Notes under the pieces: model-generated
Told to the model about the DNA's origin: nothing
What the model saw: only the letters and a program-made list of their open reading frames with translations
Databases searched by the model: none
In this document: piece by piece, positions 33,352-40,825 of the stretch
How positions within the stretch are numbered: position 1 is the stretch's first letter
Layout: the number at the start of each line of letters is the position of its first letter
Program-made: the position numbers and the translations under genes
Assembly: GCA_944390795.1 (NCBI GenBank)
Contig: CALXRI010000017.1
Span: forward strand, 1 to 59,157
DNA: 59,157 bases
Direction: 5' to 3'
Source of the DNA: an uncultured Victivallales bacterium
GTDB lineage: Bacteria > Verrucomicrobiota > Lentisphaeria > Victivallales > UBA1829

Positions 33352-35310
33352 CTATTGTTTTCCCGGTGTCCAGACACTGTAAATCTTCGGAATCAGGTAC
33401 TTGATGACCGCCGCCGCCGGGACGGCGAAAATCATTCCCGTGATTCCCGCGAACAGTCCGCCCAGCAGCACCACGATGATGGTTTCCAGAGTGGTGAGTC
33501 CGATGGCGTTTCCGACCAGGGAGGGATACAGGATCAGCTGCTCCAGGATGCCGTTGATGATCGAATAGGTGAGAACGACGCCGATCAGAGTGGTTGCCAG
33601 ATGGGCGTCTCCGAAGGCGAGGCAGATCAGTGCGGTCAGGGCGAAGCTGGCGACCGGCCCGATGAACGGCAGCAGGATCGTCAGTCCGGCGATGATTCCG
33701 AGCGGTACCGCGTAGGGGACTGAAAAGATCGAGAACGCCGTGATGTAAAGCACGGTTTCAATCAGGATGATGGAAATGTAGCCGCGGATCCACGCGTCAA
33801 ACATATGGCAGATCCGGTTGATGATTTCCGCGGCCTCCTGCCGGCTTGCCCTGGAGGTTTCCGGAAGCCATTTGGAGTCGAAGACGCTTTTCACGCACCA
33901 GTCGCCGACGCTTTCGCCGTTCGCTTTGGCAGTCGCGCGGAACGAGTTCGAGAAGAGCGCCATCTTCTGGATGAAATACAGGAAGAAGAAAATGCAGAGA
34001 AGCACGTCGAACACGAAAGTTCCAAGCGTTGTCACAACGGCCGCGAGCGTGGCAAGAATGCCGCGGCTGCGGGAGAAGAGAATTCCCGCGATGTCTTTGC
34101 TGTTCTCCTGGATGTATGCGCGCAGTTCCGGACGGAGCCATTCCAGAAATTCTTTGACGGAACGGATTTCCGGTTCCTTCAGTCCTTCCGGTTCTGCATT
34201 TTCCGCGGAGGGGACTGCTTCCGGTTCCTTCAGTCCTTCCGGTTCTGCATTTTCTGCGTAGGGGACTGCTTCCGGTTCCTTCAGTCCTTCCGGTTCTGCA
34301 TTTTCCGCGGAGGGGGCTGCTTCCGGGGCATTCTTTGTCCGGATGACCGCGGGGGAGTCTTCATGACTGATCCATGCGGCGATTGTTTTCTCCAGATGTC
34401 CCAGCACGGGACTTGAGTTTGCCCACTGGTTGACGGAACGTCCCATGTTGATTGCCGCCGGGATGAGGAAGGATACGATCAGCAGCAGCGCCAGCAGGGC
34501 CCCCGCGGCGACCGTGATCAGCGCAGCGACGGAGGATTTCATGACCAGGAGTTTGCGCGCGGCGAGAATCTGTTCCTGTTCGGTCTGTTCCTTTTCCGGC
34601 GAGAAAAATGCGCTGATCCTGCGGAAGGGCCGGCAGAACAGGGAAAGGAATGCTGAAACGGCAGTCACGATTTTCGTATTGAAGAAGTGTTTTTCAAAAT
34701 ATTTTTCCAGGGGCAGAAGGAAATACGCGAGAATGATTCCGAAAATCAGGGATTTCAGGAAAGTCGCGGCAAGGAGGAAAACGAGAATGACGACAAGGGC
34801 GACCGCGAGTCCGGCGCCGGAATTCAGCACTTTCGCAGCCGTTGCGCGCCGCGCCGCCTCCTTTGCGATCAGCTCCTGAATGAGGCGTGATTCGATTCCC
34901 AGAGCTTCGGCAAATTCCGTGAAGCTTTTCCGGCTTTTTTCCGTGAGAGGCGTGACTGTCTTGTCCAGTTCCAGCAGCGCGGAGGCCAGCGGAAGGCGGT
35001 CTCCCAGGGGAAGTGCCGAGAGAACCCGCGCTGCCTCCAGCGCATCGGCATTTCCTGCGGCGTGTTTCGCACCGCGCAGCAGTTCCGCGGAATCCTGTTC
35101 CGGAAGCGTTTTCGCAAGAATCAGTTCAAGCTCTTCCAGATCATTTTCCGGCGGCATGATTCCGTTGACGGCCGCATAAGCGGAGAGGAGCAGGGTCAGA
35201 AGCGCCTGCGCCCTGTCTTTTGGAACAGTGTCCAGATATTTGGAGGTCAGATCCAGAAAAACGGAACTTCTCCGGTTCCGGAAAAATCGAGTGATGTCCT
35301 TCAGATTCAT
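33352..35310 (-). CDS. AI-2E/PerM-family membrane permease with repeat insertion
   Basis: Integral membrane protein of 652 residues, almost twice the usual 350 of the AI-2E transporter family. About 170 N-terminal residues are soluble and helical (reminiscent of a TerB-like or regulatory domain, not assigned). The membrane part begins near LAVALVVILVFLLAATF. The extracytoplasmic loop contains three 17-residue repeats of the form AVPSAENAEPEGLKEPE. The C-terminal half carries the family signatures LPFIGPVAS and LVGNAIGLTTLETIIVVLLGGLFAGITGM. GGAGAG supports ATG 35310. Family members export AI-2, indole-related or other small molecules or ions; the substrate here is unknown. Confidence 0.85.
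   Translation of the reverse strand: MNLKDITRFFRNRRSSVFLDLTSKYLDTVPKDRAQALLTLLLSAYAAVNGIMPPENDLEELELILAKTLPEQDSAELLRGAKHAAGNADALEAARVLSALPLGDRLPLASALLELDKTVTPLTEKSRKSFTEFAEALGIESRLIQELIAKEAARRATAAKVLNSGAGLAVALVVILVFLLAATFLKSLIFGIILAYFLLPLEKYFEKHFFNTKIVTAVSAFLSLFCRPFRRISAFFSPEKEQTEQEQILAARKLLVMKSSVAALITVAAGALLALLLIVSFLIPAAINMGRSVNQWANSSPVLGHLEKTIAAWISHEDSPAVIRTKNAPEAAPSAENAEPEGLKEPEAVPYAENAEPEGLKEPEAVPSAENAEPEGLKEPEIRSVKEFLEWLRPELRAYIQENSKDIAGILFSRSRGILATLAAVVTTLGTFVFDVLLCIFFFLYFIQKMALFSNSFRATAKANGESVGDWCVKSVFDSKWLPETSRASRQEAAEIINRICHMFDAWIRGYISIILIETVLYITAFSIFSVPYAVPLGIIAGLTILLPFIGPVASFALTALICLAFGDAHLATTLIGVVLTYSIINGILEQLILYPSLVGNAIGLTTLETIIVVLLGGLFAGITGMIFAVPAAAVIKYLIPKIYSVWTPGKQ
34168..34320 (-). 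repeat. Three 51-bp in-frame tandem repeats within the PerM-like gene
   Basis: Units begin at 34168, 34219 and 34270, nearly identical at base level. Each encodes 17 residues, acidic and proline-rich, in a loop before the PerM core. The near-identity points to recent expansion by slippage, and copy number may vary between strains. Confidence 0.95.
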
Positions 35311-35473
35311 TGTCTTGTCTCTCCGCTGCATGTTGACACAATATAGCACGGGCCGCGCATTTTACGAGCGGGGAAAACGCCGCTTCCCCGGAAAATGTTC
35401 TGCGGACGGGGCGGACGCCCGCATTTTTTCCTGTTCGGGAACGGATTTCCCGGGGAATATCTGAAAATTAGGT

Positions 35474-35502
35474 TTGCCAAAAAGGAAAACATATGCTATA
35501 TT
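35474..35502 (+). promoter_or_regulatory. HPr-trk operon promoter
   Basis: TTGCCA (35474-35479), 17 bases, TATATT (35497-35502), giving a leader of about 80 bases. It lies between the divergent PerM-like gene and the HPr gene. Confidence 0.65.
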
Positions 35503-35589
35503 ATATGCCGTTATTTTTCCGGAGCCTTGAAACTTTTAACTTTACAGCATGTTCCCTTTTTGCAGAAAACAATTCGGAGAAGACATTCT

Positions 35590-35862
35590 ATGTTTGAGAA
35601 GAAAGTCCAGATACGGAACAAGGCAGGGATCCACTGCCGTCCGTCGAGCATGATCATGGGAGCGGTTGAACTGTATCCCGGACATGAGTTCTGTGTCGAG
35701 TCGGATCGCGGGAAATCGAACCTTCAGAGCATCCTGGATCTTCTCGCGCTCGGGCTGCAGTGCAATGACCTTGTCACCCTGCGCGTCACGGGGCCGAAGG
35801 AACAGGAGGCGGGTGAGAAGGTCGCCGAGCTTTTCGAGCATGTTTACGATTTTCATTCCTGA
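35590..35862 (+). CDS. HPr-family phosphocarrier protein
   Basis: Small PTS phosphocarrier, 90 residues. The active-site His is His15 in KAGIHCRPSSM (the family pattern is GLHARPA). A serine equivalent to Ser46, the HPr-kinase site, is present as Ser47 in NLQSILDLLALG. GGAGAAG precedes the ATG. It lies 14 bp before trkA and 1.4 kb before trkH, all on one strand, so it is probably co-transcribed with potassium uptake genes. No enzyme I, HPr kinase or PTS permease gene is in the window. It may act as a regulator rather than a sugar-transport carrier (inference). Confidence 0.9.
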   Translation: MFEKKVQIRNKAGIHCRPSSMIMGAVELYPGHEFCVESDRGKSNLQSILDLLALGLQCNDLVTLRVTGPKEQEAGEKVAELFEHVYDFHS

Positions 35863-35876
35863 GAAAGGAGATCCTC

Positions 35877-37241
35877 ATGAGAATCATCATCGCCGGCGCG
35901 GGCGAACTTGGCAGACTGCTGGCTTTCACGCTCAGCACGGCCGACCATGATGTGACCATCATCGACGCAGACGGCGGAATGCTTGAGCATATCAACGACA
36001 ATATGGACATCAAGGTCGTTGAAGGCAGCTGCGTCAGCATCCGCACGCTGAAGGACGCCGGAGTCAAAAACGCGGACGCGCTGCTTGCCGTCAGCGGGGA
36101 CGAGGCGGCCAACATTCTGAGCTGTCAGCTCGCCGCGAAACTCGGCGTCCGGAAAACGGTCTGCCGTGTGAATTCGCCGGATTGTTTTTCCGAAAGCGAC
36201 GGTGTCACGCCGGACAAGCTCGGCATTTGGAAATGTGTCTCTCCCTCGGAGGAGTGTGTCGGAAAAATCCGGAGCGTTCTGCGGAACCGTCTGCTTGTGG
36301 AAAAAATCCGTTTTTCGAATCCCGACGCCGTCATGGAGGTGTTCCGCGTCACGCCTTCGTCCCTGCTCGCCGGAACGCGCGTCAAGGACATTCCGACCGA
36401 TTCCGGACTTCTGAACTCCGTCCGGTTTGCCGCGATTGTCCGGCAGAAACAGTTCCTGATCCCCCACGGCGACACGATCTTCGTTCCGGGGGACAAGGTC
36501 TACATCGCAGGATCCAACCGGGACGTCAACAACTTCATCGCGTGGATCTCGGAGGAATCGATTTCCGTGCAGGCCTCGCGCATTGTCATCGCCGGCGCGA
36601 CCGCGACGGGAAAACTGCTCGCCTCGGCCCTCTGCACCGCCGGCTACGATATCCGTTTTGTGGAGAAAAACCAGCAGAAGGGGGAAAAGCTGCTTGACAC
36701 GCTTCCTCCCGGCGTGCTGGTCATCAACGGCGATCCCACGGACGAGGAGGTGCTCGAGGAGGCCGGCATCCGCGACTGCGAAGGTTTTGTAGGCGCCGCG
36801 CAGGATGACGAGGACAATATTCTGAGCTGCATCATGGCCAAGCGCCTGGGTGCGAAGAAGACTGTGGCGGTCACATCGAAGCCCGAGTACATCCGCATTG
36901 TTCCGACGATGGATATGATTGACTGCGGATTCAGCACCACTCTGACGGCGGTCAATTCGATTCTGCGGATGCTGGAAAGCGGAACCATGCGCATTGACGC
37001 GTTTCTGCAGATGTTTCATGCGCGCCTTACCGAGTTCCGGGTATCCAATTCGTCCCCGCTCTGCGGAAAGGAGCTGGCCGCCTGCAATCTGCCATCCTCC
37101 ACGCTGCTTGCGCTGGCGTTCCGGAAGGACGAGATTTTCGCGCCGTCCGGCAATACCGTCTTTCAGCCGGGCGACACGGTTGTGGCGGTCGTGACTCCTG
37201 ATGTGGAAAGGGAACTGGAACCGCTTTTTCCGGAAAAGTGA
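35877..37241 (+). CDS. trkA: Trk system potassium uptake protein TrkA
   Basis: Cytoplasmic NAD(H)-binding regulator of the TrkH potassium channel, 454 residues. Two tandem RCK_N/RCK_C units are visible: the first Rossmann motif is GAGELGRLLA at residues about 6-15, the second is IAGATATGKLLA near residue 240. Each half ends in a TrkA_C-like segment. AAAGGAG lies close to the start. It follows the HPr gene and overlaps none of its neighbours; trkH begins 6 bp after it. Confidence 0.95.
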   Translation: MRIIIAGAGELGRLLAFTLSTADHDVTIIDADGGMLEHINDNMDIKVVEGSCVSIRTLKDAGVKNADALLAVSGDEAANILSCQLAAKLGVRKTVCRVNSPDCFSESDGVTPDKLGIWKCVSPSEECVGKIRSVLRNRLLVEKIRFSNPDAVMEVFRVTPSSLLAGTRVKDIPTDSGLLNSVRFAAIVRQKQFLIPHGDTIFVPGDKVYIAGSNRDVNNFIAWISEESISVQASRIVIAGATATGKLLASALCTAGYDIRFVEKNQQKGEKLLDTLPPGVLVINGDPTDEEVLEEAGIRDCEGFVGAAQDDEDNILSCIMAKRLGAKKTVAVTSKPEYIRIVPTMDMIDCGFSTTLTAVNSILRMLESGTMRIDAFLQMFHARLTEFRVSNSSPLCGKELAACNLPSSTLLALAFRKDEIFAPSGNTVFQPGDTVVAVVTPDVERELEPLFPEK

Positions 37242-37247
37242 CGTCTT

Positions 37248-38780
37248 ATGAATCTGAAAATCGTCGTCTATCTGATTTCCATCCTGATTCTGCTGGAGGG
37301 GCTTGCCGTCGCTTCCTGCGCCGGAGTCGCCCTGATGATGGGAGATGCCCCTCATGAAATTCTTCTGATGCTCTGCTGCGCCGTGATCACCTCGCTTTCC
37401 GGAGCGCTCGGCGTCATTCTCCTGCGGCCCGGATCGAAGAATATTCAGACGGGGGTCCGCGAGGGGTTCGCAATTGTCGCGGGCGGCTGGCTGGCGGTTT
37501 CCCTTTTCGGTTCGCTTCCGTTCATCACCATTACCGGGATGCAGGTGCACGACGCCTTTTTCGAGACCGTGTCCGGCTTTACCACCACGGGCGCGTCCGT
37601 CATTGACAGCGCCTTGAAGCTCCGCGACGGGTCGACGCTTCCCGAAGGGATTGAAAGCCTCTCTTACGGGATTCTTTTCTGGAGATCCCTGACGCACTGG
37701 ATCGGCGGCATGGGGATTGTCGTGCTCTCTCTGGCGATCCTGCCGATGCTCGGCGTGGGCGGGCAGGCCCTGTTCAACGCGGAAGTTCCCGGCGTCAAAA
37801 CCAACGACGACCAGCTTACGCCGCGGATTGCGAGCACTGCGAAGATTCTTTTTCTGGTCTATTTTGTCCTGACGCTGCTCGAGACAATTCTCCTCTGGAT
37901 CGGCGGCATGCATCTTTTCGACGCGGTCTGCCACTCCTTCAGCACGATCGCAACCGGCGGATTCTCCACCAAGAACAACAGCATCGCCTATTACAACAGC
38001 TCCTACATTCAGGTCGTCATCACGATCTTCATGTTTCTTTCGGGCTGCAACTTCATTCTTCACTACCGCGCCCTGAGAGGACTGCCGCTCAAGCAGTATC
38101 TCTCCGAGGAATACCGCTTTTTCACGGGCATTCTGATTGTCGTGACGCTCGTGATCGCCGCAACGCTGTTCTTTTCCCATGTGAAGGATCCGATCAGCGG
38201 CGACCAGTATCACATGTCCCCGTGGCTCTGCCTGCGCGCCGCGGCATTTCAGGTTGTCGCGCTTTCCACGACGACGGGATTCACCACAGCGGACTATACG
38301 CTGTGGCCCGGCGCATGCGGAATGCTTCTTCTCGGTCTGATTTTCATGGGAGCCTGCGGGGGGTCGACCGCGGGCGGCATGAAATGCGTCCGGCTGCTTC
38401 TCTTCCTGAAATACAGTTTTTCCGAGCTGCGGCGCTGCATTTTTCCCCGTTCCCTTCAGGATATCCGCCTGGACGGAAAGCGCATGGATACGGCTGTTCT
38501 CAACAAGGCATTCGGATTCCTGGCCATTTACATGCTGACGGTATTTCTGTTCGCCACTCTTCTTCCGGCCGTCTGCGAAATGGATATGGTTACCGCGATT
38601 TCCGCTTCGGCGACCTGCTTCAGCAACGTTGGCCCGGGTTTCGGGCAGCTTGCCCCGGTCTACACCTTTTCCTGGATGAATCCGGCGGCGAAACTGCTTC
38701 TTGCTCTGGAGATGCTGGTCGGGCGTCTGGAACTTTACACCATTCTGATCATTTTCCTGCCGTCCTTCTGGAAAAAATGA
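37248..38780 (+). CDS. trkH: Trk potassium uptake transmembrane protein TrkH
   Basis: Potassium-translocating membrane subunit, 510 residues, close to the usual 480-490. The four pore-loop repeats are recognisable: SGFTTTGASV, FSTIATGGFST, LSTTTGFTT and a final CFSNVGPGFG, each with the filter glycine. The HWIGGMGIVVL helix is also typical. It starts 6 bp after trkA with only a weak ribosome site, suggesting coupled translation. It ends about 40 bp before the convergent murC-ispD gene. Confidence 0.95.
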   Translation: MNLKIVVYLISILILLEGLAVASCAGVALMMGDAPHEILLMLCCAVITSLSGALGVILLRPGSKNIQTGVREGFAIVAGGWLAVSLFGSLPFITITGMQVHDAFFETVSGFTTTGASVIDSALKLRDGSTLPEGIESLSYGILFWRSLTHWIGGMGIVVLSLAILPMLGVGGQALFNAEVPGVKTNDDQLTPRIASTAKILFLVYFVLTLLETILLWIGGMHLFDAVCHSFSTIATGGFSTKNNSIAYYNSSYIQVVITIFMFLSGCNFILHYRALRGLPLKQYLSEEYRFFTGILIVVTLVIAATLFFSHVKDPISGDQYHMSPWLCLRAAAFQVVALSTTTGFTTADYTLWPGACGMLLLGLIFMGACGGSTAGGMKCVRLLLFLKYSFSELRRCIFPRSLQDIRLDGKRMDTAVLNKAFGFLAIYMLTVFLFATLLPAVCEMDMVTAISASATCFSNVGPGFGQLAPVYTFSWMNPAAKLLLALEMLVGRLELYTILIIFLPSFWKK

Positions 38781-38821: not shown

Positions 38822-40825
38822 TCAGCGTCCGCGGCGTTCTTTCAGACAGGCCTCCGCAAAGAGAAGATCGCCCGGATAGGTGATCTTGATGTTTTCCGTC
38901 CGGTTTTCCACCAGATGGACTTTTGCGCGGGTGAAGGTTTCCACCAGAGACGCGTCATCTGTGAAGGTTCCTCCTTGTTTTTCCGCTGCGAGGCAGGCGT
39001 TCCGGAGCAGGGGAAGGCGGAACACCTGCGGGGTCTGCACCGTCCAGAGATTCCCGCGCGGAAGCGTCCGTATGACAATCCCGTTGTCATCGGTCTCCTT
39101 GATCGTGTCCGAAGCGCGGCGCGCTGAAACCGCGCCGCCGCATATCCGGCATGCCCGGACGCAGTCCGCCAGCGCTTCGGCGGTGATGAGCGGCCGCGCC
39201 GCGTCATGAACCGCGACGATCTCCGCGTCTTCCGGGAGCGCGGCAAGGGCGTTTCTCACGGATTGCGTCCGCGTTTCGCCTCCGGGGGCGAAACGGAGGA
39301 CTTTCAGCGCCTCGGGAAAATGCTGGCGCAGCGCTTCGATGAACTTGTCCCGTTTGGTCTCCGGCACCGCCATCACTGCGTATCCGGCGCGGACGCACGG
39401 AAGCAGTGCGCGCAGCGCGTGGAGGAAGACCGGTTCACCGTTCAGCTGGGCGAAGAGCTTGTCGCCGTTTCCGAAGCGGCGCGAGGAGCCGCCCGCCGCG
39501 AATACAAGGGCAAGGTCGGGAATCCGGCGGATTTTCTCCTTCAGAAACGGAAGGATTTCCTTCACGTCTCCCGCTCCGATGACTGCGACGAGATCGTTTT
39601 CCCGCAGCAGGGGGAAGATCTCATCCGCCATCGCCTCCCATGATCCGTTCAGCGTGCGCGCCCTGCTGCCGATTGCCCGCGCGAGATCCTTCGAATCCAG
39701 CGAGTCGGTTTCCGTCCATGCGGCGAAGACGGGCGTTACGAAAACGGCGTCCGCCGCCGCAAGCTCCCGGACGAACTCGCGGAAATACCGTTTCAGCCTG
39801 GCGTAGCGGTGCGGCTGGAAGATTACGACGAGACGTTTTCCGGGATGAAGTTCCCGGAGTGTCCGGATGGATGCGGCGATTTCCGTCGGATGGTGGGCGT
39901 AATCCTCAATCAGCAGCTGTTTTTCTCCGGCGCAGTGGATTTGAAGTCTTCTTCCGACGCCGGGAAAGGAGAGAAGCGCCTCCAGCGCGGTTTCACGATC
40001 CAGCAGTCCGCTGCGCGCCACTGCCTCCAGGGCAAGCGCGGCATTGATTCTCCGGTAGTGCCCGAATGCGGCGAAACGCGGATCGTCCGGCACGGTTCCC
40101 GGCGGAATGGCGCAGGCGTCGGGATGTTCCCGGAAAAGCGTTTCCGCGGGCGGCGCGTCCGTATAGACCAGTTTTTCCCCCTGAAACGCAAACTTGCGGA
40201 AGTTCTCCGGCAGGATTTCCGGAGAGGCGAAGTTCCATGCGTGATCGTCCTCGATGTTGGTTACGACGGCGACCGAGGAACGGATTGCGGTATGGGTTCC
40301 GTCGCTTTCGTCTGCCTCGCAGACAAAGATTTTTCCGCCGCCCGCACTGCCGGAATCCTCCCAGGAGACCACGTCCGCCCCGATCAGATAACCGGGATTG
40401 AGCCCGGCGGTCTTGAGAATATGCGCGATCATCGCCGATACGCTGGTTTTCCCGTGCGAGCCGCTGACGGCGATCACATGGGGAAAAAGGTCCGCGAGCA
40501 GGCCGAGCGCCTCGCCCCTCCGGATGCACTGCGCTCCGATCCTGCGCGCCTCGGCAAGCTCCGGATTCCTTTCCGTGACCGCGGAACTGTAGACGAGAAG
40601 CAGTTTCGTTCCGTCCGCGGTCGGCAGATGCGTTTTGTCGTGCCCCGCGAACACTTTCAGTCCGAGTCCGCGCAGACGCTCCAGCGACTCCGATTCCGCC
40701 AGATCGGATCCGGAAACGGTGAATCCGAGTTCATGAAAAATCCGCATCAGGGGCCTTGTTCCCGCCCCTCCGCAGCCGATGAAATGCACAAAACCGTCCG
40801 TTCTGTATGATAAAAGTTCCGTCAT
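38822..40825 (-). CDS. Bifunctional MurC-IspD: UDP-N-acetylmuramate--L-alanine ligase / MEP cytidylyltransferase
   Basis: One uninterrupted frame of 667 residues with two complete enzymes. Residues 1 to about 432 are MurC, which adds L-alanine to UDP-MurNAc: N-terminal GCGGAGTRPLMRIF, ATP loop GSHGKTSVS (122-130), EADESDGTHT, DYAHHPTEI and a final IGAGD. Residues about 436-667 are IspD, which makes CDP-ME in the non-mevalonate isoprenoid pathway: AAGGSSRRFGNGDKL (443-457), VHDAARPLI, TVQTPQVFR and TDDASLVE. Both have their key motifs, so both are probably active. The linker is short. The gene is alone, without the usual mur cluster or ispF. The fusion would join peptidoglycan precursor and isoprenoid (lipid carrier) supply on one chain. 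Confidence 0.93.
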   Translation of the reverse strand: MTELLSYRTDGFVHFIGCGGAGTRPLMRIFHELGFTVSGSDLAESESLERLRGLGLKVFAGHDKTHLPTADGTKLLLVYSSAVTERNPELAEARRIGAQCIRRGEALGLLADLFPHVIAVSGSHGKTSVSAMIAHILKTAGLNPGYLIGADVVSWEDSGSAGGGKIFVCEADESDGTHTAIRSSVAVVTNIEDDHAWNFASPEILPENFRKFAFQGEKLVYTDAPPAETLFREHPDACAIPPGTVPDDPRFAAFGHYRRINAALALEAVARSGLLDRETALEALLSFPGVGRRLQIHCAGEKQLLIEDYAHHPTEIAASIRTLRELHPGKRLVVIFQPHRYARLKRYFREFVRELAAADAVFVTPVFAAWTETDSLDSKDLARAIGSRARTLNGSWEAMADEIFPLLRENDLVAVIGAGDVKEILPFLKEKIRRIPDLALVFAAGGSSRRFGNGDKLFAQLNGEPVFLHALRALLPCVRAGYAVMAVPETKRDKFIEALRQHFPEALKVLRFAPGGETRTQSVRNALAALPEDAEIVAVHDAARPLITAEALADCVRACRICGGAVSARRASDTIKETDDNGIVIRTLPRGNLWTVQTPQVFRLPLLRNACLAAEKQGGTFTDDASLVETFTRAKVHLVENRTENIKITYPGDLLFAEACLKERRGR

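Follow-up and report, generated by a model that had tools for sequence, protein, structure and literature searches.

Why should the gene for an HPr-type protein of the PTS stand at the head of a potassium uptake operon, directly before trkA and trkH? The window analysed here is one entire contig (C17) of 59,157 nucleotides from an uncultured Victivallales bacterium (genome G000), the assembly of which comprises 3.44 Mb in 66 contigs and is 95.02% complete; in a scan of genome contigs, the close relatives that carry names are metagenome assemblies of Lentisphaeria or Victivallales. An earlier sequence-only reading had described a complete HPr upstream of trkA under one promoter and had proposed a dedicated HPr switch for K+ uptake. 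The block consists of the following features:

35474..35502, + strand, sigma-70-like promoter site, hexamers TTGCCA and TATATT 17 bp apart, the second preceded by TG (scan and genus alignment)
35590..35862, + strand, second HPr (HPr2), 90 aa, with His15, Cys16, Ser47 and a C-terminal D87-F88 (open reading frame, profiles, predicted fold)
35877..37241, + strand, trkA, 454 aa, two TrkA-N/TrkA-C repeats (open reading frame, profiles)
37248..38780, + strand, trkH, 510 aa, K+ channel subunit (open reading frame, profiles)

The reading frames agree with the spacing given before, 14 bp between the HPr2 gene and trkA and 6 bp between trkA and trkH. The HPr2 frame is open upstream as far as 35395, and its start was placed at the ATG at 35590 because orthologues begin at the equivalent position. 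With regard to the single promoter, the site at 35474-35502 is weak on its own, since the scan of the stretch found three sites against 0.9 (sd 1.0) expected by chance, although its pattern, TTGnCA...TGCTATAnTAT, is conserved in all four genus genomes aligned. TrkA reached 325.7 bits with NF007039 (cut-off 293) and TrkH 239.8 bits with the Pfam TrkH profile PF02386 (cut-off 27), the latter falling below two stricter NCBIfam cut-offs (TIGR00933, 299.9 against 331.15; NF008020, 347.2 against 866); as a two-repeat TrkA with a TrkH, the pair encoded at 35877-38780 constitutes a Trk K+ uptake system. The remark that no PTS enzyme lies nearby also held, as none of the PTS domains searched for on the contig (PF00381, PF05524, PF00359, PF02378, PF03610 and PF02302) was found besides HPr2, and no known RNA family reached its gathering score in the stretch.

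Two neighbours flank the block. An AI-2E family transporter gene (33352-35349, minus strand; Pfam) is divergent from the HPr2 gene, and its translation contains a threefold Glu/Pro-rich repeat around AENAEPEGLKEPE. Downstream, 38822-40825 (minus strand) encodes a 667-aa fusion of a Mur ligase (residues 13-419) and IspD (residues 439-662; Pfam), which is full-length in three other genomes of the genus at 73-95% identity.

HPr2 scored 62.8 bits with the Pfam profile PTS-HPr PF00381 (cut-off 23) and 61.4 with TIGR01003 (cut-off 47.9), its His15 lies in an H-x-R-P motif, and its AlphaFold2 model (pLDDT 96.3) takes the HPr fold; in a Foldseek search of the PDB, the best 40 matches were all HPr, Crh or NPr, some of them in complexes with partners. 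By profile and predicted fold, HPr2 is a member of the HPr phosphocarrier family, as previously recognized, and phosphorylation of His15 by enzyme I is predicted. Its fold and active-site loop resemble those of HPr proteins in the PDB (E. coli, Thermoanaerobacter, Crh and others), whereas its identity to the 20 best structural matches is about 23-31%, and it carries a GIHCRP[SA] loop and a C-terminal D-F motif. Among 35 aligned representatives of 59 HPr2 orthologues, G13-I14-H15-C16-R17-P18 and D87 are invariant; H15-C16-R17-P18 is also invariant in another 48 HPr2, a collection retrieved in part with the motif itself. Judged by these conserved residues, HPr2 (35590-35862) belongs to a distinct HPr subfamily marked by GIHCRP and the C-terminal D-F. 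This subfamily was found in 59 of the 61 genomes searched, being absent from G023 (56% complete) and G028 (94% complete). A scan of genome contigs for NxAGIHCRP gave 202 stretches, of which 184 were confirmed and 80 kept, and the groups named in the titles were Lentisphaeria/Lentisphaerae, Victivallales, Kiritimatiellota/Kiritimatiellales and Verrucomicrobia. At a threshold of 1e-12, the HPr2 alignment finds matches in 229 of the phylum's 288 genomes, the weaker of these matches possibly being ordinary HPr.

The source genome carries another HPr on contig C3, directly before the sole enzyme I found, and this copy scores 93.3 bits against 62 for HPr2; in relatives, 31 of the 35 weaker HPr matches likewise adjoin enzyme I. 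The enzyme I itself (605 aa) consists of three PTS domains only, the first starting at residue 22, and profile search detected no GAF domain of the PtsP type. HPr2 does not lie beside ptsI as a PtsH of a sugar PTS would. PTS_EIIC (PF02378), the EIIC family that the search covered, was found neither in the source genome nor in its family and in two of 61 genomes overall; PTS_IIB (PF02302) was not detected in the source genome, and EIIA-man (PF03610) in none of the 61 genomes, including the source. Thus, the sugar EIIB and EIIC that would accompany a PtsH were not found among PF02378, PF02302 and PF03610. The possibility that HPr2 is the only HPr of the genome and serves a sugar PTS, which the sequence-only reading had named as fatal to its proposal, was rejected because the second HPr adjoins enzyme I and neither PF02378 EIIC nor PF02302 EIIB was found in the genome. 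What the genome does contain is four EIIA_2 domains (PF00359), in the following genes:

source genome, two frames of 209 aa and 171 aa, EIIA alone (profile search)
contig C12, locus L114 4118-5104, - strand, EIIA with two CBS domains, 329 aa (profile search)
contig C12, locus L114 2300-4060, - strand, CitMHS-type transporter, after the EIIA-CBS gene
contig C15, locus L113 4427-6556, - strand, CPA2 cation:proton antiporter with a C-terminal EIIA, 709 aa (Pfam)

Sequences similar to the CPA2-EIIA protein occur in G011 (57% identity over residues 84-705), where the fusion recurs, and in G006 (54% over residues 242-706), where it recurs at least partly; in G036, an antiporter-like frame comes after an EIIA frame. 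From this gene content, the PTS of the source genome appears to lack a sugar transporter of the PF02378, PF02302 and PF03610 families and seems to be connected to ion transport.

To see how widely the gene order is kept, the regions of the 58 other HPr2 orthologues were retrieved and their neighbours mapped by tblastn; neighbour gene calls are longest open reading frames and include shadow frames in G+C-rich DNA. Families (f1 to f8) and genera are labelled as in the search tool, f1 being the family of the source genome (36 genomes including the source). HPr2-trkA-trkH in one direction is present at 36 of the 58 other loci, which with the source genome makes 37 of the 59 HPr2-bearing genomes and 37 of the 61 searched, and a recurrence of this extent places the order beyond chance. 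The arrangement is found in 33 of 34 loci in f1, two of two in f5 and two of two in f7, and in none of 21 in f2, f3, f4, f6 and f8. In these three families, 37 of the 38 genomes with HPr2 therefore have the trio, but the outer neighbours vary: the AI-2E transporter gene was seen at one and the Mur ligase-IspD gene at three (all within the genus) of the 36 other linked loci, both counts being lower bounds because some loci end near contig edges. Gaps in linked loci are 5-93 bp between HPr2 and trkA, with 41-93 bp in genus g5, which leaves room for separate signals, and -4 to 34 bp between trkA and trkH, except in G006 (314 bp), where the TrkH match contains one internal stop; in G018, the contig ends within trkH. 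In the NxAGIHCRP scan, 33 of the 80 loci kept are linked; the two sets of loci (L034-L091 and L117-L196) share some contigs, and their counts are kept separate.

In the other 22 genomes, HPr2 lies away from trkA. The unlinked member of f1 (G004) has a TrkH match only of the shorter kind, and in G044, HPr2 is followed by 904 bp of readable sequence, the trkA-trkH pair being on a different contig. Traced on a tree of the enzyme I sequences from 35 genomes, which was built without G055 (a 763-aa PtsP-length frame, 30% identity), linkage requires at least three changes; two genera of f1 fall apart on this one-gene tree. Linkage may have arisen once or a few times, with losses possible, and one gain followed by losses would be compatible with the tree. 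Two other notions were set aside: many independent captures of the linkage, as the tree calls for as few as three changes, and a common partner gene for unlinked HPr2, as the neighbours vary from family to family.

A TrkH match is present in 53 of the 61 genomes, and six genomes retain HPr2 without any (G042, G049, G051, G056, G058 and G059). G028 lacks both HPr2 and TrkH, a single case that one deletion could explain. Extra TrkH copies outside the HPr2 operon occur in G020, G032, G041, G046 and G048. That of G020 is of the shorter type and precedes a gene encoding an NAD-binding protein of 219 aa, and the shorter TrkH genes of G036 and G045 likewise precede genes for 216-217-aa NAD-binding proteins; we take these pairs to be KtrB-KtrA. 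The extra copy of G032 belongs to an incomplete trkA-trkH pair where a contig ends, the upstream side lying beyond the contig, and G053 has trkH without trkA beside it. No HPr was found near the trkA-trkH pairs of other families in the five cases examined (G037, G040, G044, G047 and G054). A patch of TrkA specific to linked operons was sought and rejected, as just two of 91 positions conserved in the linked set are specific to it (37 linked against five unlinked sequences).

Several precedents bear on what this operon may do. In E. coli, according to PMC13104625 and PMC11808508, the targets of unphosphorylated PtsN include TrkA, KdpD and YcgO, and in some alpha-proteobacteria a second ptsN lies inside the kdp operon (PMC13104625). 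Rhizobium leguminosarum, as described in PMC3665714, has a transporter-less regulatory PTS with NPr and two EIIA-Ntr, in which the NPr histidine is needed for transport control and which is linked with K+ limitation; Chlamydiales and Planctomycetes are described as having enzyme I without PTS transporters (PMC2405797). With these precedents and the wiring to ion transport, the reading we favour, and to which we give about an even chance, is that HPr2 serves a regulatory PTS as its second phosphocarrier, is co-expressed with TrkAH and controls Trk via EIIA. Enzyme I would phosphorylate HPr2 at His15 from PEP, and HPr2~P would hand the phosphate to the EIIA proteins, the phosphorylation state of which would set Trk activity via TrkA in the manner of unphosphorylated EIIA-Ntr in E. 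coli. Co-expression with TrkAH would scale the relay to the transporter, and K+ uptake would thereby be coupled to the PEP level. The presence of two HPr genes, of which the non-HPr2 copy alone adjoins enzyme I, and the EIIA domains fused to a CPA2 antiporter or to CBS domains beside a CitMHS transporter argue for such a relay. Also in its favour are the invariant active site of HPr2, the trio that persists as its outer neighbours change, the five trkA-trkH pairs of other families without HPr, the lack of detected EIIB, EIIC and EIIA-man, and the joint absence of HPr2 and TrkH from G028. Against it count the lack of an EIIA gene in the HPr2-trkA-trkH operon, the 22 genomes that keep HPr2 without a trk neighbour (six of them without a TrkH match), the small number of link-specific TrkA positions, the long gaps in g5 and the possibility that linkage stems from one or few events. 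For the same reason, namely the 22 genomes and the six without TrkH, "dedicated" is too strong a word for the proposed switch. The proposal is supported in part: the recurrence of the operon in relatives and the second HPr beside enzyme I speak for it, the lack of a visible kinase and of a link-specific TrkA patch against it.

The main rival, which is appreciably less probable but deserves serious attention, is co-transcription without control: HPr2 would be a general second phosphocarrier that shares the trkAH promoter for suitable expression and has no action on Trk. The other, family-dependent settings of HPr2 in 22 of 59 genomes, its retention where TrkH has no match, a TrkA without a signature of linkage and the few changes on the enzyme I tree all fit this explanation, whereas the near-constant trio of three families despite changing outer neighbours, and the attachment of EIIA domains to ion transporters or their position beside them in the source genome, argue against it.

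It is unlikely, in our estimate, that HPr2 instead binds TrkA and gates Trk through its own phosphorylation state with no EIIA. HPr2 would then be a regulatory subunit on the TrkA ring, gating by PEP or energy state, while the CPA2-EIIA protein would act on cation efflux, so that one relay would oppose K+ import and cation export. It is HPr2 and not an EIIA that neighbours trkA, and partners outside the PTS are known for HPr proteins, as the Foldseek matches include solved structures with Rsd and with glycogen phosphorylase. On the other hand, the TrkA partner known in E. coli is EIIA-Ntr (PMC13104625), TrkA lacks a link-specific patch, and the HPr2 motifs are kept where TrkH is absent.

With regard to Ser47, which had been likened to the Ser46 of HPr, the residue is indeed present in HPr2, and a search for HPr kinase had been suggested. 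None scored over cut-off in the 36 genomes of f1, the source genome being empty with Pfam as well, a negative that is not absolute because neither search's control list names Bacillus subtilis, which has HprK; sub-cut-off matches were weak in G002 and G008. Ser47 thus stands without a visible kinase. That Ser47 works as a switch of the kind known from HPr kinase or Crh is highly improbable. Although 90% or more of the 35 HPr2 aligned have a serine here, kinases over cut-off occur in five of 61 genomes, all of f3, and the residue is Gly in the linked HPr2 of G006, G009, G016 and G022.

The favoured relay through EIIA resembles the PTS-Ntr of Proteobacteria (PtsP-PtsO/NPr-PtsN) in being a PTS relay without sugar transport that is tied to K+ transport. 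It differs in that the phosphocarrier gene, not an EIIA gene, lies inside the K+ operon, in that this operon is trk, and in that the enzyme I has no detected GAF domain; moreover, HPr2 reached 35 bits with the NPr equivalog NF008146 (cut-off 119), and the four EIIA proteins reached 44.4-68.5 bits with the PtsN equivalog TIGR01419 (cut-off 138.7). The regulatory PTS of Rhizobium leguminosarum likewise lacks PTS transporters, but in the description of PMC3665714 its NPr is not placed with trkAH, and its operon has hprK and manX, homologues of which were not found in the source genome. In the papers that literature searches listed, an HPr gene in a trk operon is unreported as far as titles, the beginnings of abstracts and the passages cited here show. 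PtsN control of TrkA is thus a known precedent, and the HPr-trk operon is apparently a new form.

Most of what is known about how the PTS controls K+ transport comes from Proteobacteria and concerns EIIA. The bacteria described here belong to another phylum, carry a phosphocarrier gene in their trk operon and have EIIA domains joined to ion transporters or encoded next to them, with no sugar PTS detected. Should the link prove real, their PTS would have ion transport as a main output. The position of HPr2 at the head of the operon makes a connection between energy state and K+ uptake directly testable, and since the set of parts found is small (one enzyme I, two HPr and four EIIA), the relay could be rebuilt in vitro.

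Unlinked HPr2 genes occur in settings of their own. In 11 loci, some being the same contigs (L071, L072, L074, L079, L084 and L088, of f3 and f6, and L148, L149, L150, L158 and L159), the gene after HPr2 encodes a protein of about 810 aa, and next to it comes an ABC-ATPase-like gene in nine of the 11 and an ABC-2-permease-like gene in seven (names read from the sequence). In addition, HPr2 relatives stand directly before a gene resembling class II fructose-bisphosphate aldolase (name likewise read from the sequence) at L174, L186, L188, L190 and L191, by title Kiritimatiellales and a Verrucomicrobia bacterium, which points to another possible metabolic setting of HPr2.
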